Of a stretch of 31,926 nucleotides of DNA, positions 4,366 through 31,223 are shown piece by piece. The stretch covers positions 1 to 31,926 of IMG/VR virus record IMGVR_UViG_3300030685_000066. One strand, written 5' to 3'. Made by a program: the position numbers and the translations under genes. Source of the stretch: a virus. Positions within the stretch are counted from its first letter, which is position 1, and each line of letters begins with the position of its first letter. The notes below the pieces were generated by a model that saw only the letters and a list, made by a program, of their open reading frames with translations, was not told the origin of the DNA and searched no databases.

Positions 4366-6780
4366 TTATTTAGTAGTTTTCTTATTAGCATTCTGTCTCT
4401 TAATAGCAATGTCTTGCTTTTTAATATCCATATTATCAGCATGAACTTTCTTCTTAAATTGTAAATCATCAATTTTTAATCCATGTTCTAAACTAAATTG
4501 TTTCATATCTTCAAACAATTTAGCTTGTGCAACTGGGTCATATTCTTGAGTATCTTCCTCTTGGGTTTGTTGTTGTTGACTCTTAGCATTAGCAGTTATA
4601 GTAGCAACTGTTATTTTAGTTTCATTATCTCTTTGATTCATTGAATCTAATAATTGATTACTATTAATAATATTTTGTTGCTTCATTTGCTCAATAGATT
4701 GTTCATGTTGTTGTTGAGCTTGCTCAGATTTTTGTTTATTTTCTTGCATAGCTTGTTCATTCTTTTCTACAATTCTTTGAGTCTCAGCTAATGAAGTAGT
4801 AGTATATATCTTCATAATAGTAGAGAAGTCAAGTGTTTGATTCTGTAATGCTGCTTGAGCTAATGTATCTAACTTAGAAGCTAATTCAGCTGTACCATTA
4901 GAATTATCTATAACACAACCATAATCACATTCAGCAAATTCATCACCATCAATATCCATTAATCTATAAGAAGCATCAGGTAAGATATATTGAAATTTCT
5001 TACTTCTACCTTTCATAGCTACTTTAGCTGTTTCTATAAAACACTCTAAACTTCTTTTTTTAGTATTATCATGTTGTAAGAATAACCATTCAGTTATGTG
5101 TGATGATTGTAAATTAGACCTTTCAACTCCTCCAACTGTTTCTCTATTACTTATTTGTCCCTCTCTTTGTTTAGAAATACCTGCTACTTCAGCCATTTCC
5201 ATTTTAATAAACTCAAGTAGATTTATATGTTGTTGAATATAAGAACCTGTTTCAGCATCAATTACTCCCTTAGAAGCATTATTCATTGACCCTGCTAACT
5301 TACCTGTAGCTATTCCAATATTACCCTCTTTAAAACTATCTTTAATAGCTATATGATTAATTTTAGCATAGTATAACCATTTCTCAACATCCCATCCTTT
5401 AGGAACTAATGCTAAATCTAACTCAAGTATTTTACCCCAGTTAGAAGCAATTGCTTTATTTAATCTATCATGAGTAGCATCATACATATAATTATAAGGT
5501 TTCATCATATCAACCATTGAGAATGGTCTAGAATCATTTAAATTATATAATGTTCCTACTATTCCAAAGTGACATCTTGATGGATTACTTAATCTATTAT
5601 ACTGAACTAATCTAGGTCTCATATTCAAATAAATATGTTGTCCTATTTTAGTACCTTCCCAAGCTTCATTAATCCAATAAATACTTTCTTCTTCTCCTTT
5701 ATTTTTATCTATTGTATAAGTTTCAGGATAAAATTTAAAATCAGGTTCACCTGTTTCAGGGTCATAGAATTTTACTTTTTTAATTTTTCTTTTAGACTTC
5801 CAATATACTCTAAGTACTTTAATATTACCACTATTATCATAGTAATTATTAGTAGCTGATGGTCCTGTAAATAATGCATAACTATCAATTACTACACCTT
5901 CTTCTGTAGTACCACTTAAATCATTAACATTAATAAAGGCTCTTCTTTCATCTATATTACCCATTTGGTCTGCATAAGCAGCTTGAGGTAAATGTTCAAT
6001 ATAATCCATATCTGCTGGAGATAATGCATCATAATAATTATCAATAATTCTACCAGGACTCCAAAAATCTTCAAGCACAATAATATCAGCATCTTCTATT
6101 CTGTTAGAGAATCCTGACCTAAATATTCTTATTTTTAATGGATTAATTCTTTGAAAGGTTGGTTCTCCTGATACTATATCAGATTGATAAATTTCTTCAC
6201 CAACACTCATAGCGTCTACAAAACCTGCGTTAAATGTAGTAGGAATTTCTAATTCTTTAGTATAATGTTGTATTAAAGCATTAGCTCTAATCTCTCTAAT
6301 ATCTTGATACTCATAACTATAATAGTCATTTATTTTATCTAGTTCACCATTAAACTGGTCATCTGATAAGCCATTCTTAGATACTAACTTTTTTACATCA
6401 GCAAATAATAATTCTTTCTTTTTATCTTCTATCTCAGATATAGCATTTGGATTGGTTACTATCATTCTGAAATCAAATCTTCTTTTAGATTCTTCACCTC
6501 TAAGAACATTTAATTTAGCATTCATAATAGGATAATGAGTAATATGTTCAGGTATAAATCCTGCTTGTATAGAGTCAGGATTTAATACTTGATTCATATC
6601 ATCTACATTAAGTTTACCATTAAGTAAATCATAATTGATTCTTTTATGTATAACAGAGTTTCTTACTAAACTATCAGTAGCAAATGTTCTGTGGTCTGCC
6701 CAGTCTAAATGTTTCTTTCTCCATTCTTTATTTTTTCTTAAGAAGGATATTTGTTGTGGAGGTAAATTATTTTGAAACAT
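4366..6780 (-). CDS. Portal protein (crAss-like)
   Basis: This 804-residue protein would form the dodecameric portal at the capsid vertex through which DNA is packaged and ejected. Support comes from its size, its position next to the large terminase, and its portal-like make-up: an N-terminal alpha-rich region (INYDLLNGKLN...), a beta wing/stem section with aromatic DxxW motifs, a helical clip region (LLEFIKMEMAEVAGISKQREG), and a long Gln-rich coiled-coil tail (~665-795). The MAEVAGISKQREGQ segment resembles the conserved portal helix of crAss-like phages. A host-type promoter lies 22 nt upstream, so the portal starts its own transcript even though it is in the same direction as terminase. 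Confidence 0.85.
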   Translation of the reverse strand: MFQNNLPPQQISFLRKNKEWRKKHLDWADHRTFATDSLVRNSVIHKRINYDLLNGKLNVDDMNQVLNPDSIQAGFIPEHITHYPIMNAKLNVLRGEESKRRFDFRMIVTNPNAISEIEDKKKELLFADVKKLVSKNGLSDDQFNGELDKINDYYSYEYQDIREIRANALIQHYTKELEIPTTFNAGFVDAMSVGEEIYQSDIVSGEPTFQRINPLKIRIFRSGFSNRIEDADIIVLEDFWSPGRIIDNYYDALSPADMDYIEHLPQAAYADQMGNIDERRAFINVNDLSGTTEEGVVIDSYALFTGPSATNNYYDNSGNIKVLRVYWKSKRKIKKVKFYDPETGEPDFKFYPETYTIDKNKGEEESIYWINEAWEGTKIGQHIYLNMRPRLVQYNRLSNPSRCHFGIVGTLYNLNDSRPFSMVDMMKPYNYMYDATHDRLNKAIASNWGKILELDLALVPKGWDVEKWLYYAKINHIAIKDSFKEGNIGIATGKLAGSMNNASKGVIDAETGSYIQQHINLLEFIKMEMAEVAGISKQREGQISNRETVGGVERSNLQSSHITEWLFLQHDNTKKRSLECFIETAKVAMKGRSKKFQYILPDASYRLMDIDGDEFAECDYGCVIDNSNGTAELASKLDTLAQAALQNQTLDFSTIMKIYTTTSLAETQRIVEKNEQAMQENKQKSEQAQQQHEQSIEQMKQQNIINSNQLLDSMNQRDNETKITVATITANAKSQQQQTQEEDTQEYDPVAQAKLFEDMKQFSLEHGLKIDDLQFKKKVHADNMDIKKQDIAIKRQNANKKTTK

Positions 6781-6880: not shown

Positions 6881-9250
6881 TTACTCTTGATTATTATCTA
6901 AATGTAGTCCTAATGCCTTGTAATTCTTAGTAAAAGTATCTTCTTTATAAGGTTTATAGTTATTTGTAAAAAATGGGTCATCTGCTAATTCACTTCCTCT
7001 CTCTTTACCTAAAGATTCTGAAGGAGTATTAGTACCAAATAACCTTAACTTATCTTCTCTTATTAACATAAGCATAGCTAAAGCATCATGTCTATCAAAG
7101 TTACCATCAGGATTCCATAGTATTAATTCCTTGATAAGTGCTCTTGAGTTAAGTTGAGTAAGAAAAGGTACTTTTACATCTACTTCTTCTTTATCAATAA
7201 CTTTAGTAACAGTATAAGGTTTTAATAACCATTCTTTAATTGCTCTCCTACCATAAGCTTTAATAGGAGCAGATGATATAGTACCTTTAGCTTTATTTCC
7301 ATAGTTTGCTTCAACCTTAGTAGAAGCTTTATCTTTTAAAAACTCAAGATTATCTGATAATAAGTAAGTACAATTATGAGTAGAAAAATAAGTAAATAAA
7401 CCTTTCTTATTATTTTCATAGTTACACTCAGCATTATACATTAATAAAGCTCTTCTACAAATCTCATAAAAATCATTAGCAAACATAGGTCTACCTGTAT
7501 ATTCAAATACAATTTTATCAGTATATAAATCTAAAATATATAAAGAACCTAAAGATAAAGTACCTGAAGCATCATCATCATAAGGGTCAATACCTGCAAT
7601 ATATCTACCTCTATAAACTTTATTATTAGAATCCATTACTGGTAATGCATGTATCTCAATACATCCTTCTAATTTATTATCTTTATGTGGGAATTCTCTA
7701 ATAGGTTTAACTTCACTACTAGGTTTAAATCTAACTACAGCATCCTTATCTAAAGAGATGAGTCCTACTAAGATATCATCATAACTTTTAGGATTAAAAT
7801 CTAATTCATTTAATCTATCTGTAAGGTCAGCTACTGGATAAATAGTTCCCTCTCTTTTCATTACAGCTTCTTGAATAGTAATAGCTTGCTCTGCTTTTTT
7901 TCTAGTTAAAGCCATTGAGTCACTACTATTATATTTAACTTTAAACCTAGCTTCAAACTCTCTAGTTAAAGCTAATATAACATCAGATACTCCATCCTTA
8001 TTATAACACCCTTTTCTATTTAGATAAGAACCAAAAAAGAATACAGTCTTTTGTTTACCTTGACTATTTTTATCATACACATTAGGTAAAGCATATACAC
8101 CATAACCAATAGGATTATAAATCATTTCTAAAGCTCCACTAAAATCTGAACCTTCAGAACCTCCTGTACCAAATCCTACAGCTTGACCAAATACAATATC
8201 ATCTTCCTGAACATTTGATTTATTAACTCCCCATGTATCAATAAATTTAGGGAAAGCTCCAAATTCTTCATAGATAAAAATATTAGACCTTTTACCCCTG
8301 GATTTATCAGTATTATCTTTTGCTGATATACCTAAAACTTCATTACCTGTACCCTTATTAGTATTAGTATCAGCATCTTTATATCCCATCATCCATGACA
8401 TATCTGCCAAAGAATCCTTTAATCTTTGAGAAGGAAATTGAGTATGTTCAGCATTAAAATCTATAATATCAATAAACTTATTAAGAATACCATCTTTAGT
8501 TAAATACTCTTTCTGATAAGCTGTAACAGCTCCTTTTACTGACTTACATGCTAACTCATTCTCTCCACATATAAATAGCTTGGCAAGTCTTGCAGCAGCA
8601 CTATAACTCTTACTAGCTCCACGTCTAGCTATCTGTATAGCATGTTCTGCTCCTTCCCAATTATTATATATACCTCCATTTCTAGCTTGGTCTTGATAAT
8701 GAAACCATAAGTAAATACCTTCCCATACCTCAGGGAAGTCAATAACTCTATCAGCTTGTTTAGTACCTTCTCTAATTTTAGATTGAATAATTGGAGTATA
8801 GTTTAAATAAAAATACATATCTCCTGTAATCCATTCACCATCACTAGGTCTAACCATTCCATACCAAATTCTTAACTTTTCTTGTCTTAACCATTTACCA
8901 AATTCACTACTAGGATTAGCATTAGGTCTTAAGTTAGTAAGTGTACCATGTTGTCTAAAATGATTACCTGTTGGTCTAAAATATTCCATATCTTCAAGTA
9001 TATGAGGATTAACTATATCTACTATAATTCTATTCTCAATTACTCTTGTATTAGTAGTAATATCAGTAACTATACTTACTGCTCTTCTATCTAAATCTTT
9101 AGCATATTTTCTATCAGGACTTATTAATCTTTTTATAAATTCAATATTAGTAATAGCATCTAATAAATCATCTTTTACTTCAGGATTTAGAGATTCTAAA
9201 TACTCTTCTGTAATAGGAGTTTGATACTTATTTAATATTATTTCTTCCAT
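6881..9250 (-). CDS. terL: Terminase large subunit
   Basis: The 789-residue packaging motor cuts concatemeric DNA and translocates it into the procapsid. The ATPase domain has a degenerate Walker A (IARRGASKSYS, ~207-217) and Walker B with catalytic acid (NIFIYEEFG, ~323-331). The RNase H-like nuclease has acidic sites at IAGIDPYDDD (D555, D558), an acidic pair near AECNYENN (~608-612), and FDRHDALAM (D719, D722). The long N-terminus with WLRQEKLRIWYG...SDGEWITGDMYFYLNY is typical of crAss-like terminases. The start overlaps the preceding 99-residue gene by 13 nt. No small terminase is identifiable beside it. Confidence 0.93.
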   Translation of the reverse strand: MEEIILNKYQTPITEEYLESLNPEVKDDLLDAITNIEFIKRLISPDRKYAKDLDRRAVSIVTDITTNTRVIENRIIVDIVNPHILEDMEYFRPTGNHFRQHGTLTNLRPNANPSSEFGKWLRQEKLRIWYGMVRPSDGEWITGDMYFYLNYTPIIQSKIREGTKQADRVIDFPEVWEGIYLWFHYQDQARNGGIYNNWEGAEHAIQIARRGASKSYSAAARLAKLFICGENELACKSVKGAVTAYQKEYLTKDGILNKFIDIIDFNAEHTQFPSQRLKDSLADMSWMMGYKDADTNTNKGTGNEVLGISAKDNTDKSRGKRSNIFIYEEFGAFPKFIDTWGVNKSNVQEDDIVFGQAVGFGTGGSEGSDFSGALEMIYNPIGYGVYALPNVYDKNSQGKQKTVFFFGSYLNRKGCYNKDGVSDVILALTREFEARFKVKYNSSDSMALTRKKAEQAITIQEAVMKREGTIYPVADLTDRLNELDFNPKSYDDILVGLISLDKDAVVRFKPSSEVKPIREFPHKDNKLEGCIEIHALPVMDSNNKVYRGRYIAGIDPYDDDASGTLSLGSLYILDLYTDKIVFEYTGRPMFANDFYEICRRALLMYNAECNYENNKKGLFTYFSTHNCTYLLSDNLEFLKDKASTKVEANYGNKAKGTISSAPIKAYGRRAIKEWLLKPYTVTKVIDKEEVDVKVPFLTQLNSRALIKELILWNPDGNFDRHDALAMLMLIREDKLRLFGTNTPSESLGKERGSELADDPFFTNNYKPYKEDTFTKNYKALGLHLDNNQE

Positions 9251-12605: not shown

Positions 12606-12628
12606 ATTTATATATTTAAAGTATTTAG

Positions 12629-12702
12629 TGGCGGGTACTGGATTTGAACCAGTGACCTACAGATTATGAGTCTGTTGAGCTACCTGACTGCTCTAACCCG
12701 CT
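12629..12702 (-). tRNA. Initiator tRNA-fMet (CAT)
   Basis: The gene aligns base for base with bacterial initiator tRNA. The D arm is GAGC AGTCAGGTA GCTC (with the A11-U24 pair), the anticodon loop CTCATAA, the variable region AGGTC and the T loop TTCAAAT. The acceptor is GCGGGT/ACCCGC with position 1:72 unpaired (A1 x C72), the initiator hallmark in mirror form (E. coli has C1 x A72). The anticodon stem is ACAGA/UCUGU, so the usual three G-C pairs at 29-31/39-41 are missing. CCA is not encoded. Confidence 0.88.
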
Positions 12703-12710
12703 ATTTTTTG

Positions 12711-12782
12711 AGCCAAATCTAGGACTCAAACCTAGTTAAACCACTTTACAAGAGTGGGCTTCATCATCAAAGTTTATTTGGC
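12711..12782 (-). tRNA. tRNA-Thr (TGT)
   Basis: The cloverleaf has a perfect 7-bp acceptor GCCAAAT/ATTTGGC, anticodon arm CCACT-CTTGTAA-AGTGG and T arm CTAGG-TTTGAGT-CCTAG. Discriminator U. CCA is not encoded. Confidence 0.92.
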
Positions 12783-12790
12783 ATTTTAAA

Positions 12791-12864
12791 AATTATTTAG
12801 TTGGAATATTACATGTCTCCACTTAATTCTAACTTCCATCCACTTTGTTAGAAACTAAATAATT
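12791..12864 (-). ncRNA. tRNA-sized structured RNA that is not a tRNA
   Basis: This 74-nt element occupies exactly one slot of the tRNA array, 8 nt from tRNA-Thr and 1 nt from tRNA-Leu. Its ends form a perfect 12-bp helix (AATTATTTAGTT/AACTAAATAATT). Inside are a 6-bp hairpin TCTAAC/GTTAGA and a weaker GGA/TCC hairpin, giving a three-way junction. There is no T-loop TTCRANT, no D-arm consensus and no 7-nt anticodon loop in the right place, so it is not a normal tRNA. Strand is assumed from its neighbours. It may be cut out by the same RNases as the tRNAs. Confidence 0.5.
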
Positions 12865-12865
12865 G

Positions 12866-12951
12866 TACCTTGAATGGGACTTGAACCCATACGAGCATTA
12901 CTGCTCACAGGATTTTAAGTCCTGCGTGTCTACCAATTCCACCATCAAGGC
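12866..12951 (-). tRNA. tRNA-Leu (TAA)
   Basis: This is a class II tRNA of 86 nt with a long variable arm (GAGCAGTAATGCTC). The anticodon arm is CAGGA-CTTAAAA-TCCTG and the T arm ATGGG-TTCAAGT-CCCAT. The acceptor GCCTTGA/TCAAGGT has a G1-U72 wobble. The stop codon of the gene upstream lies inside its acceptor stem. Confidence 0.93.
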
Positions 12952-13313
12952 ATTATTTCTTTTTTATAATCAGCAAATGTTTTAATAATATTACCTTTAG
13001 TATCAGTTATAGTATTATTAGTTTCTTTAGCAAATAATATTTGTCTTAATAATTCTTCTTCTAAGTTACTAGTCATAATCCATGCACTCTTATTAGCAAT
13101 ATTTTGGGTAGGATAAGTTACTTTAATTCTAAGAAAAACCTCATTAGTAGGTACATACATTACTACTCCTTCTACTGTAGAATTAGAATATATATAAATT
13201 TCAGAATGAAAAAATAATTTTTTATCTATAATTTTTCCATTATTAAAAATACCATTAAGATTTAAAATAAAATCTCTATCAGCATTCAAACTATTTAATA
13301 AAACTACACTCAT
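12945..13313 (-). CDS. Unknown protein ending inside tRNA-Leu
   Basis: The 122-residue protein has beta-strand-rich segments (KLFFHSEIYIYSNSTVEGVVMYVP, EVFLRIKVTYP) and then helices. I do not recognise it. It has its own promoter (13337-13368). The last codons (ATG CCT TGA) overlap the first 7 nt of tRNA-Leu, so cutting the tRNA from the transcript would remove this mRNA's stop codon. Confidence 0.65.
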   Translation of the reverse strand: MSVVLLNSLNADRDFILNLNGIFNNGKIIDKKLFFHSEIYIYSNSTVEGVVMYVPTNEVFLRIKVTYPTQNIANKSAWIMTSNLEEELLRQILFAKETNNTITDTKGNIIKTFADYKKEIMP

Positions 13314-13336
13314 ACTTTATTTTTTATTTGTTGATA

Positions 13337-13368
13337 CAAAGGTAAGTAAAATAAACTACATGACCTAA
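13337..13368 (-). promoter_or_regulatory. Bacteroidetes-type promoter for the 12945-13313 gene and tRNAs
   Basis: On the minus strand TACCTTTG (13344-13337) has TTAG 20 nt upstream. The -7 box is good and the -33 box weak. The ATG follows 24 nt downstream of the -7 box, and the TTTTACT run before the box is shared with the other copies. Confidence 0.65.
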
Positions 13369-13405
13369 TTATTATTGTTAAAGTTTTAAGTATTAACTAA
13401 TATTG

Positions 13406-13478
13406 TGGAAACAGAGAGACTCAAACTCCCTTAGCTAGTGCTTCAAACTAGTGCATACATCATGTCTGCCATATTTCC
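13406..13478 (-). tRNA. tRNA-Phe (GAA)
   Basis: The acceptor is GGAAATA/TGTTTCC, the anticodon arm CTAGT-TTGAAGC-ACTAG, and the T arm GGGAG-TTTGAGT-CTCTC with a few wobbles. Discriminator A. CCA is not encoded. Confidence 0.88.
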
Positions 13479-13484
13479 ATTAAG

Positions 13485-13556
13485 GGTGTAGTAGGGACTC
13501 GAACCCTCCCTCCAAATCCACAATTTGGCACTCTCACCATAAGAGCTTTCCACACA
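13485..13556 (-). tRNA. tRNA-His (GTG)
   Basis: The anticodon arm is CCAAA-TTGTGGA-TTTGG, the D arm GCTC/GAGT-like and the T loop TTCGAGT. The discriminator region is C-rich, as expected for tRNA-His with C73. The exact 5' end is uncertain by 1-2 nt. The encoded base opposite C73 is not a clear G, so the G-1 may be added after transcription. Confidence 0.82.
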
Positions 13557-13557
13557 G

Positions 13558-13630
13558 TGGACCATCCAAGGATTGAACTTGGGACTTACTGATTATGAGT
13601 CAGGTGCTCTACCAACTGAGCTACTGGTCC
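13558..13630 (-). tRNA. tRNA with CAT anticodon (elongator Met, or Ile2)
   Basis: The acceptor is GGACCA/TGGTCC, the D arm GCTCAGTTGGTAGAGC, the anticodon arm CTGA-CTCATAA-TCAG and the T loop TTCAATC. It lacks initiator features (paired 1:72, normal D arm). The sequence looks like elongator Met, but tRNA-Ile lysidinylated at C34 cannot be excluded. It ends about 1 nt from tRNA-His, so the two must be separated by precise processing. Confidence 0.88.
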
Positions 13631-13639
13631 TTAGACTAA

Positions 13640-14080
13640 TTACTTAGCAGCTATTCTAAATAAATATAAGAATTTTCCTACTATAGTCATAAATCCTTCT
13701 ACAGAATTTACTAAACCAATTAATTCAGGATTAGAATTAATACTTTTATGAAATGCTAATGTTTTATCTTTAAGAGTAGTTAAAGCTACTATTGGGTCAG
13801 TATAATTTAAGTGAGTAGTAACTATATCATTAGGTCCAAATTGGAATCCTATAATACCTTGCCCTGTCTCAGATAATTCATCTTGGAAGTCAGTTAACTC
13901 ATCTAAGAATTGGTCTACTCTTAAATGTAAAGTATCATTCATAGCTCCCCAATGTAAATTCTTAAATTTAGTTTTATAACTTTCAAGTTTACATATAAAA
14001 TCTTTAAAAGTACTAGTACCACTAGTATTACCACTACCACCCTTAGGTCTTAGACTTAAATCTAAATCAAAATTGTCCAT
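13640..14080 (-). CDS. Ferritin/Dps-like four-helix protein
   Basis: The 146-residue protein resembles the Dps/ferritin-like fold in FKDFICKLESYKTKFKNLHWGAMNDTLHLRVDQFLDELTDFQDELSETGQG. An NLHW...H...D...E spacing like the Dps HW...H...D..AE core lies at ~42-75. A Gly/Ser-rich linker follows a short N-terminus MDNFDLDLSLRP. Whether it binds iron is unclear. Its N-terminal DLDLSL also opens the vWA protein at 25893. It is flanked by tRNAs on the downstream side. Confidence 0.5.
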   Translation of the reverse strand: MDNFDLDLSLRPKGGSGNTSGTSTFKDFICKLESYKTKFKNLHWGAMNDTLHLRVDQFLDELTDFQDELSETGQGIIGFQFGPNDIVTTHLNYTDPIVALTTLKDKTLAFHKSINSNPELIGLVNSVEGFMTIVGKFLYLFRIAAK

Positions 14081-14098
14081 TTTATTAAGTTTTTAAGG

Positions 14099-14359
14099 TT
14101 AATAAGAATTCTTTAATAGTACTAATAATATCTTATAAAAAATTCTTTTATTTATTTCTTTAAATATTGATAATTTATTATCATCCAATTCAATATCTTC
14201 TATTCTAATATCTTCTATTTTACCATCCTCATCATTTGTAATCCAACTAATCTTAGTTCCTTTAAAGATATGAGTATCAATATTGTATTCAGTTAGTCTT
14301 ACTATGTATTTATCTTTAGATATATAAAGATTTGGATTAACTATAAAGTATCTATTCAT
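14099..14359 (-). CDS. Unknown small protein
   Basis: The 86-residue protein is beta-rich at the N-terminus (RYFIVNPNLYISKDKYIVRLTEYN) and has an acidic, Ile-rich repeat (EDIRIEDIELDDN) before a helical end. I do not recognise it. It has codon use and start context like its neighbours. Confidence 0.6.
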   Translation of the reverse strand: MNRYFIVNPNLYISKDKYIVRLTEYNIDTHIFKGTKISWITNDEDGKIEDIRIEDIELDDNKLSIFKEINKRIFYKILLVLLKNSY

Positions 14360-14393
14360 ACGCTTTAAAATTGAGTAGGAAGATAAAAATAAA

Positions 14394-14621
14394 CTATTTT
14401 AGTTTTATTACTAAATTATTAATAATATCTCTCTTAGTATTATCAACTATATAATCAGTAACTTCTTTAATTCTTTTATTACTACTAATATGATATAATC
14501 TATCAGGTTCACAAAATACTAATATATGATTAGGAGCATATAGTAAACAATAATTAGGACTATTAGGAGTGGTAATAATATTACCTTTCTCCATCTCTAA
14601 GTAAGCTTCTTCCCAAGTCAT
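14394..14621 (-). CDS. Unknown small protein (MTWEEAYLEMEKG start)
   Basis: The 75-residue protein has an opening (TWEEAYLEMEKGNIITTP) of the kind seen in many small phage proteins, including DUF2829-like ones: a helix followed by a GK/GN turn and strand. The rest does not match well enough to name it. It starts 1 nt after the stop of the gene at 14623, so the two are probably co-translated. Confidence 0.6.
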   Translation of the reverse strand: MTWEEAYLEMEKGNIITTPNSPNYCLLYAPNHILVFCEPDRLYHISSNKRIKEVTDYIVDNTKRDIINNLVIKLK

Positions 14622-14622
14622 A

Positions 14623-14925
14623 TTAATATACTTTTCCCTTTACATGCATAGTATCAGCATATTCAGGTTTATCAACTCCTTGTTTAATTTCAGTCTTATA
14701 AACAATATTAAAAAATTGAGATTGTTTATTAAATTTATATTCTCTTTCTTTTAAAGCTACTTCTAATTCTCTTACTATTTCTCTATATTTATATAGAGAT
14801 TCTTTAGTATCTAATAAATTTTTATAATCATATATGATAGTTTCTTTATAATCTTTTGATACTAAATCAGGATATAAAGGAATTACATCATCTATAATCT
14901 CTAACATTACTTCAATTTGTGCCAT
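14623..14925 (-). CDS. Unknown helical protein
   Basis: The 100-residue protein is predominantly charged helix (KNLLDTKESLYKYREIVRELEVALKERE) with a C-terminal TMHVKGKVY. It follows tRNA-Asn by about 24 nt. I do not recognise a family. Confidence 0.6.
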   Translation of the reverse strand: MAQIEVMLEIIDDVIPLYPDLVSKDYKETIIYDYKNLLDTKESLYKYREIVRELEVALKEREYKFNKQSQFFNIVYKTEIKQGVDKPEYADTMHVKGKVY

Positions 14926-14948
14926 TGTTTTTAATTAAATTAATACTG

Positions 14949-15022
14949 CGTTCTAAGTAGGACTTGAACCTACAACCCTTTGATTAACAGTCAAAAGCTC
15001 TAACCAATTGAGCTATTAGAAC
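14949..15022 (-). tRNA. tRNA-Asn (GTT)
   Basis: The acceptor GTTCTAA/TTAGAAC is perfect, with discriminator G as usual for Asn. The anticodon arm is TTTGA-CTGTTAA-TCAAA and the T arm GTAGG-TTCAAGT-CCTAC. Confidence 0.93.
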
Positions 15023-15027
15023 ATATG

Positions 15028-15101
15028 TGGAATCTGTGGGGATTGAACCCACTACCTATTGCTTGCAAAGCAATCGCTCTAGCCAATTGAGCTAAGACCC
15101 C
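15028..15101 (-). tRNA. tRNA-Ala (TGC)
   Basis: The acceptor GGGGTCT/AGATTCC contains the G3-U70 wobble that marks alanine tRNA. The anticodon arm is ATTGC-TTTGCAA-GCAAT and the T arm GTGGG-TTCAATC-CCCAC. Only 5 nt separate it from tRNA-Asn. Confidence 0.93.
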
Positions 15102-15104
15102 TTA

Positions 15105-15317
15105 TTAAAATCTATTTATTCTTTCCATTAAAACTTTATAATAACCAGTCATATACATAACCTGTAAGTCTATCATACTTTGTTCTGATTTAGATAAATT
15201 TTTATATACATCAGTTAATATAAATTTCTCTATCTTTCTTACTTTAAAATCAATATCTTTAAACTCATCAATAACTCTTAGTTGATAAGGTTCTAATGTT
15301 TTCTTTTCTTCTTCCAT
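15105..15317 (-). CDS. Small conserved helical phage protein
   Basis: The start is at MEEEKKTLEPYQ (ATG at 15317). The open frame extends 26 codons further upstream, but that part is the tRNA-Pro gene read through. The 70-residue product has the pattern YQxRVIDEF...KVRKIEKFI...L...E...IDLQ...M..YY..L..RI, a form I recall in many Bacteroidetes phage genomes. Function unknown. It ends 3 nt before tRNA-Ala. Confidence 0.75.
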   Translation of the reverse strand: MEEEKKTLEPYQLRVIDEFKDIDFKVRKIEKFILTDVYKNLSKSEQSMIDLQVMYMTGYYKVLMERINRF

Positions 15318-15337
15318 TTTAATTCTAAAATAAATTG

Positions 15338-15410
15338 TATAGATAAAGAGACTCCAACTCTTGACCTCTTGGTCCCAAACCAAGCATTCTAGCAACTGAA
15401 CTATATCTAT
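15338..15410 (-). tRNA. tRNA-Pro (TGG)
   Basis: The acceptor ATAGATA/TATCTAT is perfect and all-weak except one G-C pair. The anticodon arm is CTTGG-TTTGGGA-CCAAG and the T arm AAGAG-TTGGAGT-CTCTT, an unusual T loop (TTGGAGT instead of TTCRANT). Discriminator A. Confidence 0.88.
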
Positions 15411-15479
15411 ATTTTTGTGCTATCTCTATCTTCACAGACTAAGTATAGCTAAATCAACTTTATTAAAAACATTTATGAT

Positions 15480-15746
15480 TTAATTCAACAAACTACTTTG
15501 TTGTGTTTGTTGTATATCTTTTTCTAACTCTTGAGAACTAACTAATCCTAATACTTTGTAAAACTTATTCTTATCAGTATTACCTATTGCATCAATATTA
15601 TCATCAACCTCTTTTGTAATATCCTCAGTACTTTCAGTATTACTATCAACTACAAATAATCTAAGATATTCATCAGGATGTTTATCTATGTTATCATTAT
15701 ATTCTTTATAAGAACATTCTCTCAATACAGGAACTCTTTGTATCAT
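15480..15746 (-). CDS. Unknown small acidic protein
   Basis: The 88-residue protein begins MIQRVPVLRECSYKEYNDN and has a Glu/Asp/Asn/Thr-rich middle and a Gln/Ser-rich tail. I do not recognise it. It lies between tRNA-Arg and tRNA-Pro. The ~70-nt gap before tRNA-Pro holds a weak hairpin (GCTAT/ATAGC) of unclear meaning. Confidence 0.6.
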   Translation of the reverse strand: MIQRVPVLRECSYKEYNDNIDKHPDEYLRLFVVDSNTESTEDITKEVDDNIDAIGNTDKNKFYKVLGLVSSQELEKDIQQTQQSSLLN

Positions 15747-15761
15747 ATTTATTAATTATTG

Positions 15762-15833
15762 TACCCCTAATAGGATTCAAACCTATACTATAATCTTAGA
15801 AGAATCGTGTGCTATTCATTACACTATAAAGGC
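15762..15833 (-). tRNA. tRNA-Arg (TCT), minus-strand copy
   Basis: The anticodon loop is CTTCTAA with a weak, wobble-rich stem (CGATT/GATTA, one mismatch). The acceptor GCCTTTA/TAGGGGT is full of G-U pairs and the T arm is ATAGG-TTTGAAT-CCTAT. It reads AGA codons. The poor anticodon stem may mean lower activity than the plus-strand copy at 21339. Confidence 0.8.
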
Positions 15834-15842
15834 ATATTATTG

Positions 15843-15913
15843 TAGTCTCCTAAAGATTTGAACTTTAACTAAGAGGACCAAAGACTCTTGTGCTACCATT
15901 ACACTAGGAAACT
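15843..15913 (-). tRNA. tRNA-Gln (TTG)
   Basis: The acceptor is AGTTTCC/GGAGACT, the D arm GTGTAATGGTAGCAC (typical of Gln), the anticodon loop CTTTGGT in an AGAG/CTCT stem with a T31 x C39 mismatch, and the T arm TAAAG-TTCAAAT-CTTTA. The anticodon is UUG, not an amber-reading CUA. Confidence 0.85.
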
Positions 15914-21338: not shown

Positions 21339-21412
21339 GGTTCAGTAGCTCAGCTGAATAGAGCACTACCCTTCTAAGGTAGGGGTCAAGGGTTTGAATC
21401 CCTTCTGAATCA
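21339..21412 (+). tRNA. tRNA-Arg (TCT), plus-strand copy
   Basis: The cloverleaf is clean: acceptor GGTTCAG/CTGAATC, D arm GCTCAGCTGAATAGAGC, anticodon arm CTACC-CTTCTAA-GGTAG, T arm AAGGG-TTTGAAT-CCCTT, discriminator A. It is the only plus-strand tRNA and has the same anticodon as the copy at 15762 but a quite different body. Confidence 0.93.
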
Positions 21413-21451
21413 CAATTAAATAAATTATTAATCTTAGTACTTAAGAACATT

Positions 21452-25892: not shown

Positions 25893-26576
25893 ATGGATTT
25901 TAATGATTTAGACTTATCTCTGGATTTTAATAATTTTGACCCAGAGCAAATTCAAGTAGAAGAAACTATTAATGCTGTATTCATTGTGGATATTTCTCCA
26001 TCAATATACCCATATTCTAGTGACTTGAATAATGCCTTCAATGATTTTATTCAAACTATGCAACAAAGTCATATTCATGATAGATTATTTGTTTCTATTG
26101 TAGAATTCCATGATAAAGTTAAAGTAAGAAGTGGATTCCAACCTATTATTGGAGTACCAACTATTCAATTTACTCCATCAGGTCATGGTACAGCTTTATA
26201 TGATGCAGTGGCTCAAGGTATTAAAAATGCTATTGAGTACAGAGAGAACCTTGAAAATACTGGTATTAATGTTAAAACATTAGTATTTGTAATTACTGAT
26301 GGTGAAGATAATTCATCACAGAGAGGTGCAGCTGATGCTGTTAAAACTACTCTTGATGATATTGCTAAAAATGAAGCAAGTGCCTTTTCTTTTACTTCAA
26401 TCTTATTTGGAGTAGGAGATGATTCTTCTTTTGAGAGAGCTCAAAAGTTAATGGGTATTCAACATTTGGCTAAAGTAGGTAATACTGGTGCTGAGATAAG
26501 AAAAATGATTAATTTCATTTCTTCTTCTATCTCTAAATCAAGTAGTGGTGCTAATCCTTTAGATGTAACTTTCTAA
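25893..26576 (+). CDS. vWA-domain protein (TerY-like)
   Basis: The 227-residue protein is a single von Willebrand A domain with a full metal-ion-dependent adhesion site: D33-I-S-P-S37 (DxSxS), T100 (GHGTALYD) and ITDGEDN (D136). Its length and layout match cytoplasmic TerY-type vWA proteins, which act with a PP2C phosphatase and a kinase in the TerY-P triad. Its last base is the first base of the phosphatase ATG, so the genes are coupled. The N-terminus MDFNDLDLSLDF shares DLDLSL with the Dps-like protein at 13640. The binding partner is probably one of the next two gene products. Confidence 0.88.
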   Translation: MDFNDLDLSLDFNNFDPEQIQVEETINAVFIVDISPSIYPYSSDLNNAFNDFIQTMQQSHIHDRLFVSIVEFHDKVKVRSGFQPIIGVPTIQFTPSGHGTALYDAVAQGIKNAIEYRENLENTGINVKTLVFVITDGEDNSSQRGAADAVKTTLDDIAKNEASAFSFTSILFGVGDDSSFERAQKLMGIQHLAKVGNTGAEIRKMINFISSSISKSSSGANPLDVTF

Positions 26577-27307
26577 TGGAAGTTAGAACTCTTGTTAAAA
26601 AAGGAGATGACCATCTCACTTATTGTGAGGATTCCTTATTCTTTAGAGTTCAAGATGCAAAAGAACCTTTATACATTGGAGCAATCTTTGATGGTTGCTC
26701 CACCGGTATGGATTCTCATTTTGCTTCTTCTCTATTAGTTAAAGTATTAAAACATTCCTGTAATAATTTTAAGAATGTAGCTGATTTAAATCTTCATTTT
26801 ATTATGAATATACTATTTCATGATATATTTGATGGATTTAAAGAAGTACAACATTTATTAGATTTAAAAGAATTAGAATTAGTATCAACTATGATAATTT
26901 GTATTATTAGAGGTGATGAAGTTTTAATTCTTAGCTCAGGTGATGGAGTAATAAAAGTGGATGATGAATTAATAATTCTTGAATCTAAAGATAATGCTCC
27001 TGATTATATGGCTTACTACTTAGATAAGAATCCTACACTAGTAATGGCTAAACATACTAATCTACATTCATTTACATTTAAAAAAGATGTAAGTATCTGT
27101 AGTGATGGTATCTGTTCATTTAGAAATGCACTTAAAGAAGATGCTACAGCATTAGCAATTGATACATTCTTAAATGATAGAAGTTTAATAGGGTCAGATG
27201 CTATGTTATCAAGAAAGTATAACATTTTTAGAAAAAAAGGTTATATTAATTTTGATGATATTAGTATTGTTAGATTCATAAAAGAGCCAACTGATGAAAG
27301 TATTTGA
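26576..27307 (+). CDS. PP2C-family protein phosphatase
   Basis: The 243-residue enzyme is predicted to remove phosphate from Ser/Thr in a metal-dependent way. PP2C motifs appear in order: C17-ED19-S, GAIFDGC (D39, G40), STMIICIIRGDEVLILSSGDG (G122-D123-G124), ICSDGI (D177) and FDDISIV (D227/D228). All metal-binding acids look present. It lacks a membrane segment. It lies between the vWA and kinase genes with 1-nt and 14-nt overlaps. The natural substrate is likely the kinase or a target of the kinase. Confidence 0.88.
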   Translation: MEVRTLVKKGDDHLTYCEDSLFFRVQDAKEPLYIGAIFDGCSTGMDSHFASSLLVKVLKHSCNNFKNVADLNLHFIMNILFHDIFDGFKEVQHLLDLKELELVSTMIICIIRGDEVLILSSGDGVIKVDDELIILESKDNAPDYMAYYLDKNPTLVMAKHTNLHSFTFKKDVSICSDGICSFRNALKEDATALAIDTFLNDRSLIGSDAMLSRKYNIFRKKGYINFDDISIVRFIKEPTDESI

Positions 27308-28961
27308 TAAGAATGGTCAACTACTTTATGATATTAATGAATCTAAAGAGATTGCAAGAGGTGGAGAAGGAAGAGTCCTTGATTTGGATGCTAACCATGT
27401 GGTTAAATTGTATCTTCCCAATGTTAAACCTATTGCTGAAAGTAAATTTCTAGAATTACACAAATTAGATAATCCCATGTTTATCAAGCCTGAATCATTA
27501 CTTTATGATGCTAATAAACATGTTCTTGGATTCTCAATGAGGAAAATTCCTAGTGATTTCTTTCCTTTAGTTTCATTATTAAATAAAGTGTTTTGTAATA
27601 GAGAATCAATTACTTTAGATACAAAGAAAAAAGTAATTGAAGCTTTAATACAAGGTGTTAAATATGCTCATAGCAATCAGGTAGTTATAGGAGATTTAAA
27701 TCCTTATAATATCTTAATTAATAGAGATGGAATTGTGTATTTTATAGATACTGATTCCTTTCAGACCCCTGGATTTAAACATTCAGGTGTGTTATTAGAA
27801 GATGTTAGGGACTTTTTATTTAATGGAGATGTATCTATTAATTCTGATTATTTTGCCTTGTCTATTTTGGTATTTAATATGCTTACTTATGTACACCCAT
27901 TCAAAGGTATGCATAAAAAGATACCTAAGATAGCAGATAGAATGATTAAGAAGGAATCAATATTGTCTAATTCTCCTGATATTATAATTCCTAAGTGCTA
28001 TGAGCCTATTTCTGATAATATGTTACTCAATCAATTTAATAGAGTATTTAATAATGGAGAAAGATTTATTATAAGTCTTAATACTATGATTATTAATACT
28101 GTAATTAAACAACCTGTAAATATACAATCAGCTAATATGACTGTAAGAACAATGTTTGGAGGAGTAGGTACTCAGATTATTCAATCAACTGCTAGTAAGG
28201 ATTTGTTATTATTGTATACAGTTAGAGGTGAGTATTTTATATATGATACCTCACTTAAAGGTACTGCTACTCTTGTAAAAAGTGACAAAATAACTGCTAA
28301 AAATCCTAAGTTTTTTGTATATGAAAAAGCTATTTATTGTCTCAATAGTAATGGTAACTTACTTCAACTCTATCCTAAATTAGAACATATAGCTAGTGTT
28401 CCTAGTACTATTAAAATCAAAGCTGATTTATATGGTTCTAATCTTGTATTAGTAACAGAAGATAAACTGTATAATTTTGATTTAAGTAAAAGTTTATTAG
28501 GATTATCTTATACTATAACTTCTGTATATGGTAGAGGATTTACTCAGATAGATAGTATTTATCAGAGTGTATCAGGTAAAACTGTATTGATGTATTGTGA
28601 AAAGAATAGTTTAAACTATGTAATGGCTGATATAGCAATTAAGAATATAATTCAAAGAGGAAACTTAGTTTTACTTGAAGAAATAGCTAATGAGAAGGTA
28701 ACTTATCAATATGCTAGTATCTCAAATCTAAAACTTACTTATTTAGCTTCTGAGACCGAATTAAAATACTTTGATGTGCTTAATAATGATTTAGCAGTAA
28801 TACCTTATGATAATAAAATACAATTTGCTAGATTATTAGATATGAATCCAATACTTGAATTTGATTGTTCTGTAGCTTCAGCTAACTCAATTATTCATTG
28901 TACTAATGCAGGTATTGTGATTGTAAATAATGATGCATGTTACCTAACTAATAAGAGGTAA
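27294..28961 (+). CDS. Ser/Thr protein kinase with C-terminal beta-propeller-like region
   Basis: The 555-residue protein has a kinase domain at ~1-270. The Gly-rich loop is ARGGEGRV (21-28), the ATP-binding Lys K38 (VVKLY), the catalytic loop IGDLNPYNIL (D134, N139) and the metal site IDTD (D152-T-D154, in place of DFG). The GDLNPxNIL form is usual for kinases of the TerY-P/PP2C-linked group, where HRD is replaced. The rest (~285-555) is beta-rich with repeated units of ~40-50 residues (LLLLYTVRGEYFIYDTS..., AIYCLNSNGNLLQLYP), like a beta-propeller. The family often has a zinc ribbon there instead. It overlaps the phosphatase by 14 nt. Confidence 0.85.
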   Translation: MKVFDKNGQLLYDINESKEIARGGEGRVLDLDANHVVKLYLPNVKPIAESKFLELHKLDNPMFIKPESLLYDANKHVLGFSMRKIPSDFFPLVSLLNKVFCNRESITLDTKKKVIEALIQGVKYAHSNQVVIGDLNPYNILINRDGIVYFIDTDSFQTPGFKHSGVLLEDVRDFLFNGDVSINSDYFALSILVFNMLTYVHPFKGMHKKIPKIADRMIKKESILSNSPDIIIPKCYEPISDNMLLNQFNRVFNNGERFIISLNTMIINTVIKQPVNIQSANMTVRTMFGGVGTQIIQSTASKDLLLLYTVRGEYFIYDTSLKGTATLVKSDKITAKNPKFFVYEKAIYCLNSNGNLLQLYPKLEHIASVPSTIKIKADLYGSNLVLVTEDKLYNFDLSKSLLGLSYTITSVYGRGFTQIDSIYQSVSGKTVLMYCEKNSLNYVMADIAIKNIIQRGNLVLLEEIANEKVTYQYASISNLKLTYLASETELKYFDVLNNDLAVIPYDNKIQFARLLDMNPILEFDCSVASANSIIHCTNAGIVIVNNDACYLTNKR

Positions 28962-29453
28962 TTATTGAATTAAATGATGTGTTTCTCTATGACAATTTGC
29001 ACAAAGAAGTACACATTTATCCAATTCTATTTTTAGAGTAGGAGTTAATCCTGCTCTCATATTAAAGTAATCTTTATCTTTTTCTGTTGGATTTAAATGA
29101 TGAAATTCTAAAGCTGCAATAGATTTATTGTAACCACATATAGAACATTTTCCTCCTTTATATTCAACAGCTAAAGATTTAGTATCTCTTTGTCTTTCTA
29201 AATTAGATTCAACAATACAAGATTTACAATAAGAACTACTTTTCTTATATTGATAAAATTCAGATTTTAACTTAGATGTATTACATTTAGGGCATAATTT
29301 TAATTCATTCTCTTTATTAATAGTTCTAATAGTTTGTAAATCATACTTTTTAAGCCAATATCTTACATTAGCTTGAGTAGTATTAGATTGTTCAGCAATC
29401 TGCCAAGTGCTTAAATTCTGATTAATCAGATTAATTAAAGTTTCTTTATTCAT
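28962..29453 (-). CDS. HNH endonuclease (homing type)
   Basis: I start at MNKETLINLINQ (29453). The 30 codons upstream overlap the promoter at 29473-29504. The 163-residue protein has an N-terminal helix-turn-helix (TWQIAEQSNTTQANVRYWLKKY), a four-Cys zinc ribbon (LCPKCNTSK ... YCKSCIV), and a C-terminal HNH nuclease (CSICGYNKSIAALEFHHLNP ... LCANCHRETHH). The layout is typical of free-standing phage homing endonucleases. Its stop abuts the kinase stop on the other strand with no gap. It is the only minus-strand gene in the right half, which suggests separate arrival. Confidence 0.88.
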   Translation of the reverse strand: MNKETLINLINQNLSTWQIAEQSNTTQANVRYWLKKYDLQTIRTINKENELKLCPKCNTSKLKSEFYQYKKSSSYCKSCIVESNLERQRDTKSLAVEYKGGKCSICGYNKSIAALEFHHLNPTEKDKDYFNMRAGLTPTLKIELDKCVLLCANCHRETHHLIQ

Positions 29454-29472
29454 AATTTTAAATCTTAAAATA

Positions 29473-29504
29473 CAAATATAAGTAAAATATCTCATATTAC
29501 CAAA
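29473..29504 (-). promoter_or_regulatory. Bacteroidetes-type promoter for the HNH gene
   Basis: On the minus strand TTTG, 20 nt, TATATTTG (29480-29473), exact to consensus. It sets the HNH start at 29453. Confidence 0.8.
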
Positions 29505-29551
29505 TCTATTGATTATTATTTTGAGAAATAGTGGACTAAACATTGAAAACC

Positions 29552-29770
29552 ACTTAAATAATTGGATATCAGATGAGAGTCTGAATGTGTTGTTCCTTTG
29601 AGAAAGGAAAGGTGTAGGGAATATATCCTAAGTAGTATATCAACACAAATGAGTTCTCAGCAAATTATAGCATTGGGCTACTAACCTGAGATTGTTATAA
29701 TGTGACCCTACCTTAAATGCGTGGAATAAATCTTAGTGAGTCTAAGGAGGAGGGTGCTAATAAATACTTT
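29552..29770 (+). ncRNA. Unidentified structured RNA before the broken gene
   Basis: CACTTA...GGATAT pairs with ATATCC-TAAGTAG (~29555-29635) and encloses hairpins CAGA/TCTG and TTCCTTT/AAAGGAA. The unpaired TGTGTTG in that domain can pair with CAACACA just after it, a possible pseudoknot. Downstream are CTCAG/CTGAG with an inner TAGC/GCTA, and ACCCT/AGGGT enclosing CTTAG-TGAGT-CTAAG. The region has no ORF. Strand is inferred from the gene downstream. No known family recognised. Confidence 0.45.
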
Positions 29771-29797
29771 TAGATTATAAATCAAAACATTAAATAA

Positions 29798-30266
29798 ATG
29801 AAAGAATTAAATCAATTAATGCAAGCACAATTTGATAAAATGTGCGAGAGAGGTAAGCTATTTAGAAGTAGTATTACTGGACAACAAGCTTGGGATTTAT
29901 ATTTAGAATCCTTTTCACCTATAGATGACCCTATTTTTAGAGACCCTAAATCATCAGTACACAATTGTAATCTCTGTAACAACTTTAAAAATCACTATTA
30001 AAGCTATTAAGAAATCTCTTAAAGCTAGTGATGATGATGAACTTGACTTTTTAGAAGAATCTGAAAGTAAAGTTGATAAGTTAATTGAATTATCTTTTAA
30101 TATCTTAAAAGATATTTACATTACTAAAAAGGATGCAGCTAAAACTCTTAGAGATGCTGCTGCTATTAAAGAAAATAATCAGAAAATTCTTGTTGAAATA
30201 GCAAGAAGAAAAGAGTTGAAAATTACTCAAATTTCTGATGAAGAGTTAGAAGCTATGCTAAAATAA
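29798..30266 (+). pseudogene. Broken or frameshifted gene (FRDPxSSxHNCN N-terminus)
   Basis: The first frame (29798-30001, 67 codons) has MCERGKLFRSS, AWDLYLESF and DDPIFRDPKSSVHNCNLCNNF, then loses its way (KNHY, stop). From memory, that motif opens a much longer protein family (several hundred residues) of Bacteroidetes phages. A second frame, +1 relative to the first, carries good coding sequence from about 29980 to 30266 (acidic/helical, ending KELKITQISDEELEAMLK) but has no convincing start of its own. The simplest reading is an internal deletion joining the start of one gene to the end of another, or a frameshift. Programmed frameshifting near AACTTTAAAAATC is less likely but possible. 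Confidence 0.5.
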
Positions 30267-30269
30267 AAA

Positions 30270-30576
30270 TAGATTAGTAATAATCTAGGCTGGTTAGACC
30301 CATACCTTACATATTATATAATATAATATGAAGTTAAGGAGATTTAAGTGAGATTCTTAAATCAAGCAGGGTAAGTGTCTCCCCATATACTGTTTGGTAT
30401 ATAAAACTTGTAGACAACAATAATCTAAATACTCCTCTTTGAATGAGATAATGCTCTCATCAGTGAAACACTATAGCATGAATCTGAAAGACTAAATTAT
30501 ATTAAATTAATTGAATGAAATACATAGAGGATTTGAAAAAATAACTGAAGGCTTAAGAGGTGATAGAATTATTTTT
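30270..30576 (+). ncRNA. Unidentified structured RNA after the broken gene
   Basis: The stretch is non-coding and ends in a terminator. Clear helices are TAGATTA-GTAA-TAATCTA (30270-30287, GNRA-type loop), a long CCTTA..TAAGG hairpin with an ATATTAT/ATAATAT core (~30313-30347), GATTTAAG/CTTAAATC (~30341-30363), ATATAC/GTATAT inside GTCT/AGAC, GAGA/TCTC and AGTG/CACT. I looked for RNase P and group I intron core motifs and did not find them. It may be a stand-alone small RNA or a 3' UTR. Confidence 0.45.
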
Positions 30577-30617
30577 AAATAGCATGGCTTTAATAGTCAT
30601 GCTATTTACTTTTTAAT
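30577..30617 (+). terminator. Rho-independent terminator
   Basis: A perfect 10-bp stem AAATAGCATG/CATGCTATTT with an 11-nt loop is followed by ACTTTTTAATT. Confidence 0.8.
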
Positions 30618-30649
30618 TCTATTAAAGTAAAAATATAAAATATTAAACA

Positions 30650-30681
30650 TTTGATAACGGTTTTATTTATGTGTATTGTGT
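30650..30681 (+). promoter_or_regulatory. Possible promoter for the small RNA before tmRNA
   Basis: TTTG, 20 nt, TATTGTGT keeps the exact spacing of the other promoters here but matches the -7 box (TANNTTTG) only partly. Confidence 0.45.
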
Positions 30682-30689
30682 ATTATAAG

Positions 30690-30800
30690 TATTAAATTTC
30701 TTATTAAAATAGAAAATTTAACACTGAAAATTAGCAGACTGTGAAGTTAGTTAATTTATTAAGGGTATAACATAGGTAACTATGTTATACTCTTATTTTT
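30690..30800 (+). ncRNA. Probable small RNA between promoter and terminator
   Basis: There is no ORF in these ~110 nt. A hairpin AAATTTCT/AGAAAATTT (one bulge) near 30691-30720 and a strong 3' terminator define a likely short transcript. It lies just upstream of tmRNA and could also be the 5' part of the tmRNA precursor. Confidence 0.4.
30761..30800 (+). terminator. Strong hairpin with T tract directly before tmRNA
   Basis: A 15-bp stem (one G-U) closes on a GTAA loop: AAGGGTATAACATAG pairs with CTATGTTATACTCTT. ATTTTT follows. It leaves only 12 nt before the tmRNA 5' end. Confidence 0.82.
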
Positions 30801-30812
30801 AAATAAAAAACT

Positions 30813-31223
30813 GGGGCTAGTTGGTTTAGACTATCTCAAGAAAAGTAGTAATTTATGCATGGAGGAGTCCTTTAAATACTCAAAGAAGAATAACAGGCAA
30901 AACTATTGTTTTTGTTCCTGCTGCAAAGCTTGCTTTAGTAGCGTAAGAGAACTGGGGTGACAACAACCTTATCAAATAAAGTTGTAAAAAGTTTAAACTT
31001 TCTTAAAAAGTCTTGAGATATATTGCCTCCTTACTGAGGAATATTAAGTATTGCAATCTCATTGCATGGTGGTGTCTGTTTGTGTCCCAAACAGTCCTAG
31101 AGTTTTCAATATTTCACTCTATTACTAGAAATAGCTGAAAAAGTACAGTAAATACTAAGCATATATAAGATTATTAGTAAGTATTAAGATAACACGAGGG
31201 TTCGACTCCCTCTAGCTCCACCA
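30813..31223 (+). ncRNA. ssrA: tmRNA (transfer-messenger RNA)
   Basis: This 411-nt RNA would rescue ribosomes stalled on broken mRNA and tag the product for proteolysis. The tRNA-like ends are clear. The acceptor GGGGCTA (30813-30819) pairs with TAGCTCC (31213-31219), including the G3-U70 wobble read by alanyl-tRNA synthetase. The discriminator is A, CCA is encoded (31221-31223), and the T arm is GAGGG-TTCGACT-CCCTC (31196-31212). TATCT/AGATA (30832-30836 with 31187-31191) starts helix 2. The tag frame begins at GGC 30896 and encodes GKTIVFVPAAKLALVA, then TAA (30944-30946). It starts with Gly, as I recall for Bacteroidetes tags (GETNYALAA-like). Several hairpins follow in the pseudoknot region. 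Permuted or split forms are excluded because the ends are in normal order. Confidence 0.95.

Follow-up and report, generated by a model that had tools for sequence, protein, structure and literature searches.

Identification of a complete tmRNA gene

The window analyzed here, a virus record of 31,926 bases, contains a complete one-piece tmRNA gene (ssrA) of 411 nt at positions 30813–31223 of the plus strand. A tmRNA releases stalled ribosomes and marks incomplete proteins for degradation. ARAGORN called a one-piece tmRNA with the tag GKTIVFVPAAKLALVA at these positions. An Rfam search of an 801-base stretch aligned the tmRNA model RF00023 to the same interval over its full length (model positions 1–374 of 374) with 46.2 bits and an E value of 4.7e-17. 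The initial annotation described an intact, phage-borne tmRNA with a tag frame, and the identical ends given by both programs, together with the G3•U pair, T arm, and CCA, bear this out. Its appeal to an Rfam covariance match fared less simply. The full model does match across the gene, but the score is 0.8 bit below the RF00023 gathering score of 47, and the gene is missed in a default Rfam scan for this reason. Alignment confidence is high at the two tRNA-like ends and near the conserved ACUAAGCAU and low in the central part. The same tmRNA in an 84-kb contig of the same phage matches RF00023 with an E value of 1.2e-18. A permuted tmRNA (RF04321) was ruled out for the window gene by its standard gene order and a weak RF04321 match (21 bits), and RF04321 had no match at E 0.001 in the 84-kb contig.

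The 5′ tRNA-like part (30813–30839, plus strand) consists of the acceptor strand GGGGCUA, a stemless D loop of the tmRNA type, and the start of P2 in the ARAGORN structure. The 3′ tRNA-like part (31184–31223, plus strand), where the Rfam posterior is at or near its maximum, contains the P2 3′ strand, the T arm, the acceptor strand UAGCUCC, and ACCA. The acceptor strands (30813–30819 and 31213–31219) form a 7-bp stem with the alanine signal G3•U at 30815 and 31217. The T arm, GAGGG-UUCGACU-CCCUC, occupies 31196–31212, and the gene ends with the discriminator A and an encoded CCA (31220–31223, with CCA at 31221–31223). The P2 strands at 30831–30839 and 31184–31192 pair, and P2 replaces the anticodon arm.

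A simple stem search of the window gene did not find a PK1 with two stems of at least 4 pairs. It returned one candidate pseudoknot after the tag (30953–30985, plus strand; UGGGGU/ACCUUA with ACAAC/GUUGU) and one before the P2 3′ strand (31098–31133, plus strand; UAGAGU/ACUCUA with UAUUUC/GAAAUA), and shuffled sequence gives equally good knots. The gene copies to hand are identical, and the knots of the mRNA domain were judged from one sequence. Our claim is restricted to the tRNA-like domain and the tag, and the pseudoknots are candidates only.

The tag and its resume site

The tag reading frame (30896–30946, plus strand) encodes GKTIVFVPAAKLALVA in 16 codons closed by a stop. ARAGORN places the resume codon GGC directly after AAUAACA, a context like that of Bacteroidota ssrA: many of these genes have AAUAANNGGC at the same place and share the GGC codon. 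The tag has 16 residues compared to 9–10 in 14 distinct Bacteroidota tags, and its body has nothing obvious in common with them, which casts doubt on whether any host adaptor that binds the tag body would recognize it. The mean length of 25 distinct one-piece phage tags that we tabulated is 22.6. The final residue is Ala in 25 of the 25 and the last two are AA in 19, a regularity that may partly stem from the tag choice made by ARAGORN. In the E. coli tag, ClpX reads the terminal hydrophobic residue and Ala, and an LVA variant is degraded too. The window tag ends in ALVA (KLALVA), a hydrophobic-Ala end of the ClpXP signal type. Because ALVA keeps the usual type of signal, the destination of tagged chains is probably the same protease that receives host-tagged chains. 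The suggestion that the phage re-tags proteins with a different degradation signal thus holds for the length and body of the tag and not for its end.

Genomic context

The window TerL is 54% identical to the TerL of cr108_1 (Steigviridae, Asinivirinae), and the terminase and portal fall in matching PHROGs of crAss type. These protein matches place the genome among the crAss-like phages (Crassvirales), with the Steigviridae as the nearest family. The record IMGVR_UViG_3300037280_000040 (84,378 bases) is the same phage, with 99.8% identity over 19 kb. It was assembled separately, and its tmRNA region is identical to that of the window over 1,365 bases (100%). The tmRNA is followed in the 84-kb contig by two small ORFs, a glucosaminidase-type lysin, a YqeY-like ORF (score below the Pfam cut-off), a helicase, a DnaB-like helicase, and an AAA ATPase. 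The tmRNA gene points rightward, lies upstream of the replication genes and co-directional with them, and stands at the head of this module. No SmpB was recognizable in the 84-kb contig or in 34 other crAss-related records, and ten of the control genomes, all bacteria, did match.

A pattern scan located a terminator-like hairpin (16 pairs and a T run) at 30760–30795 of the plus strand that ends 17 nt before the tmRNA 5′ end. The scan gave 3 such sites compared to 0.5 expected in shuffles. No clear promoter was found upstream of the window tmRNA. Since the hairpin sits upstream, we propose that the tmRNA is transcribed either from an unrecognized promoter that overlaps the hairpin or by read-through. 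A second strong terminator-like hairpin is located at 30576–30608 in the non-coding stretch before the tmRNA, and in cr10_1 a hairpin (L165, about 5917–5938) likewise precedes the permuted tmRNA. A group I intron near the upstream HNH gene (28900–30812) was considered and ruled out by the lack of an Rfam match.

Other features of the window were recorded. It has eleven tRNA genes, ten of them clustered at 12628–15913 on the minus strand, and a tRNA-Arg(tct) gene at 21339–21413 (plus strand) repeats the anticodon of a cluster tRNA. A VWA protein, a PP2C-type phosphatase, and a protein kinase are encoded consecutively at 25893–28961 (plus strand) and adjoin a weak isochorismatase match and a Band 7 protein. 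We take this row to resemble the triads of TerY-type gene clusters.

Distribution among relatives and Bacteroidota

RF00023 detected no tmRNA above the cut-off in eight Steigviridae-like genomes, among which cr111_1 gave two weak matches of 11–12 bits. The tmRNA copy is new to its phage group by comparison with these eight genomes. A search for further one-piece relatives through the neighboring genes found only contigs of the same phage, and at the DNA level the tmRNA resembled phage records only in short pieces, mostly of the T arm.

An attempt to find the host from the exact 3′-end pattern in bacterial genomes gave a single match, a Paramuribaculum MAG, which is too weak to name a host and served only as an entry to the Bacteroidota. 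A standard ssrA is present in 232 of the 247 Bacteroidota genomes sampled. One of the 247 has a permuted tmRNA match (L271, G273:C1:986035-986308) besides its standard ssrA, and the permuted tag GKVIQMNNAPVRLAA resembles ANIFAINNAPVRLAA of a crAss-related contig (L186). From this resemblance and the presence of the standard gene, the permuted copy probably belongs to a resident phage.

Permuted, intron-split, and coding-less tmRNAs

Permuted tmRNAs were found in other crAss-like phages. RF04321 matched the Suoliviridae genomes cr10_1 (49.6 bits), cr125_1 (46.3 bits), and cr60_1 (40.3 bits), and ARAGORN called permuted genes in cr50_1 and cr114_1, also Suoliviridae. A common tag pattern around (F/Y)V.DYT is kept across four Suoliviridae genera, as expected if the tag is used. 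The permuted Suoliviridae tags (L165, L167, L168, L260, L261) include GNNFVTDYTQLAVA, GNNFVTDYTAIGA, GNTSYVMDYTRLAA, and GNFYVTDYTRIAA; Bacteroidota bacteria use the standard form. A cultured phage, Chryseobacterium phage MA9V-3 (L259), also has a permuted tmRNA of its own.

In Culoivirus cr55_1 (MT774376; L265:3408-4355), an insert of about 700 nt splits the T loop of the permuted tmRNA, and the same interruption occurs in cr1_1 (MT774380; L266:3167-4117). The insert holds a group I intron (RF00028, with a score of 58.7 bits in cr55_1) and, on the opposite strand, an HNH endonuclease ORF. No tmRNA is annotated at either locus, and the combination of permutation and intron is absent from the tmRNA gene forms tabulated in PMC11915505.

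Coding-less tmRNAs of 81–88 nt occur in 21 IMG/VR contigs (L189–L193, L195–L210) and in one crAss-like contig (L093, contig positions 8696–8776, minus strand). They are built from an acceptor with G3•U, a tmRNA D loop, a 7-bp P2 hairpin with strong covariation, and a T arm. ARAGORN called no tRNA at these sites and a doubtful longer tmRNA in L193 and L203. Phage DS6A, the one natural phage case of a coding-less tmRNA named in the cited literature, has a molecule that consists of the tRNA-like domain only, and a DS6A-like molecule strongly inhibits tmRNA (PMC4131195). By analogy, the short forms may inhibit host tmRNA, a role already proposed for the DS6A molecule. The intron-split permuted tmRNA and the coding-less tmRNAs look more novel than the window gene.

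Proposed function and alternatives

We propose, with a probability of roughly 0.62, that the window gene makes a working tmRNA that carries out trans-translation with host factors and supplies extra ribosome rescue and a phage-specific tag during infection. Maturation of the transcript would rely on host RNase P and 3′ nucleases, and its charging on the host alanyl-tRNA synthetase. Host SmpB and EF-Tu would bind the charged RNA, which would enter ribosomes stalled on broken mRNA and add A-GKTIVFVPAAKLALVA to the unfinished chain. With its hydrophobic-Ala end, the tagged chain would be handed to proteases of the ClpXP type, and the ribosome would be freed for phage translation. The phage would benefit from additional rescue capacity early in infection, as the position at the head of the replication-gene module suggests, and its tag need not depend on host adaptor proteins. 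As no SmpB was recognizable in the phage, the system would have to draw on SmpB of the host, and the replacement of host rescue that the initial annotation raised is unlikely as an outright takeover.

This proposal draws on a complete gene with exact ends and universal tmRNA features, the identical gene in the separate 84-kb contig, the Bacteroidota-type resume context, the ALVA tag end alongside the Ala ends of the tabulated phage tags, the tag pattern kept in the Suoliviridae, and the rightward orientation upstream of the replication genes. The low Rfam score, knots at chance level, the upstream terminator-like hairpin, and the missing clear promoter count against it.

The gene could instead be a passenger, an ssrA captured intact from a bacterium with little effect beside the host copy. 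The frequency of ssrA in the sampled Bacteroidota (232/247) is in keeping with this idea, and the absence of a convincing RF00023 match in 8 of 8 Steigviridae-like genomes indicates that the group does not need the gene. However, the window gene is far diverged (46 bits compared to 138–205) yet keeps its acceptor stem, P2, T arm, CCA, resume site, and open tag, which a useless copy would lose; we consider the passenger explanation unlikely. It is less probable still that the RNA is a decoy that titrates SmpB or otherwise blocks host trans-translation in the manner of the DS6A molecule. The strong inhibition of tmRNA by a DS6A-like molecule (PMC4131195) and the similar short forms in other virus contigs and one crAss-like contig lend this idea some weight, but the window gene keeps a full mRNA domain, an open tag frame, and a protease-type end that a decoy would not need. 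A stable RNA with another role, such as a packaged or regulatory RNA or an attachment-site remnant, is very improbable. Integration commonly targets bacterial ssrA genes (PMC11915505), but this gene is complete at both ends rather than an att fragment, and no annotated neighbor gene points to integration. A chance match, or a tRNA mistaken for a tmRNA, has the subthreshold Rfam score in its favor and is dismissed on the ARAGORN call with independently identical ends, the RF00023 matches in both contigs with a full-model E of 4.7e-17 in the window, the tmRNA-type D loop, and the absence of a tRNA call at the site.

A broader and speculative idea is that tmRNA genes were acquired or rearranged several times within Crassvirales and are used by these phages to seize control of ribosome rescue, their phage-specific tags sending unfinished proteins along a different route from that of the host tag. 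It rests on the one-piece gene of the window, the permuted genes of Suoliviridae, the permuted gene with a group I intron in Culoivirus, and the coding-less form in a distant relative, and we regard it as rather unlikely.

The crAss-like phages rank among the most abundant human gut viruses. Should their tmRNAs be active, ribosome rescue would be a task that phages manage themselves. The tag offers a direct handle on use through peptides ending in KLALVA, and comparison of the one-piece form with the permuted, intron-split, and coding-less phage forms could separate rescue, re-tagging, and inhibition.

Comparison with known tmRNAs

The initial annotation called tmRNA genes uncommon in phages, a fair description given that 402 of 18,146 phage genomes (about 2%) have one, with 133 unique structures of which 53 were suggested to be two-piece (PMC9004378). 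Ten phages with tmRNA are listed in PMC4131195 and 79 unique phage tmRNA sequences in PMC11915505. Phage tmRNAs, both one-piece and permuted, are already known in the literature; our search of open-access full texts, which was not exhaustive, surfaced no paper devoted to tmRNA in crAss-like phages.

The window gene resembles Bacteroidota ssrA in gene order, G3•U acceptor, T arm, CCA, P2, the AAUAA..GGC resume context, and the hydrophobic-Ala tag end. It differs in its 411-nt length, a tag of 16 rather than 9–10 residues, an LVA rather than LAA or MAA end, and its RF00023 score of 46.2 bits compared to 138–205 bits among the listed Bacteroidota genes. The Suoliviridae tmRNAs (cr10_1, cr50_1, cr60_1, cr114_1, and cr125_1), annotated SsrA in GenBank, belong to the same phage order. 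They are circularly permuted, with the T arm/CCA-side half preceding the tag half, whereas the window gene has the standard order. Mycobacterium phages Bxz1, Catera, and Wildcat, Bacillus phage G, and many IMG/VR contigs likewise have a tailed-phage one-piece tmRNA with its own tag. In contrast to those of the named phages, the window gene belongs to another lineage, Steigviridae-like Crassvirales, and encodes a different tag.
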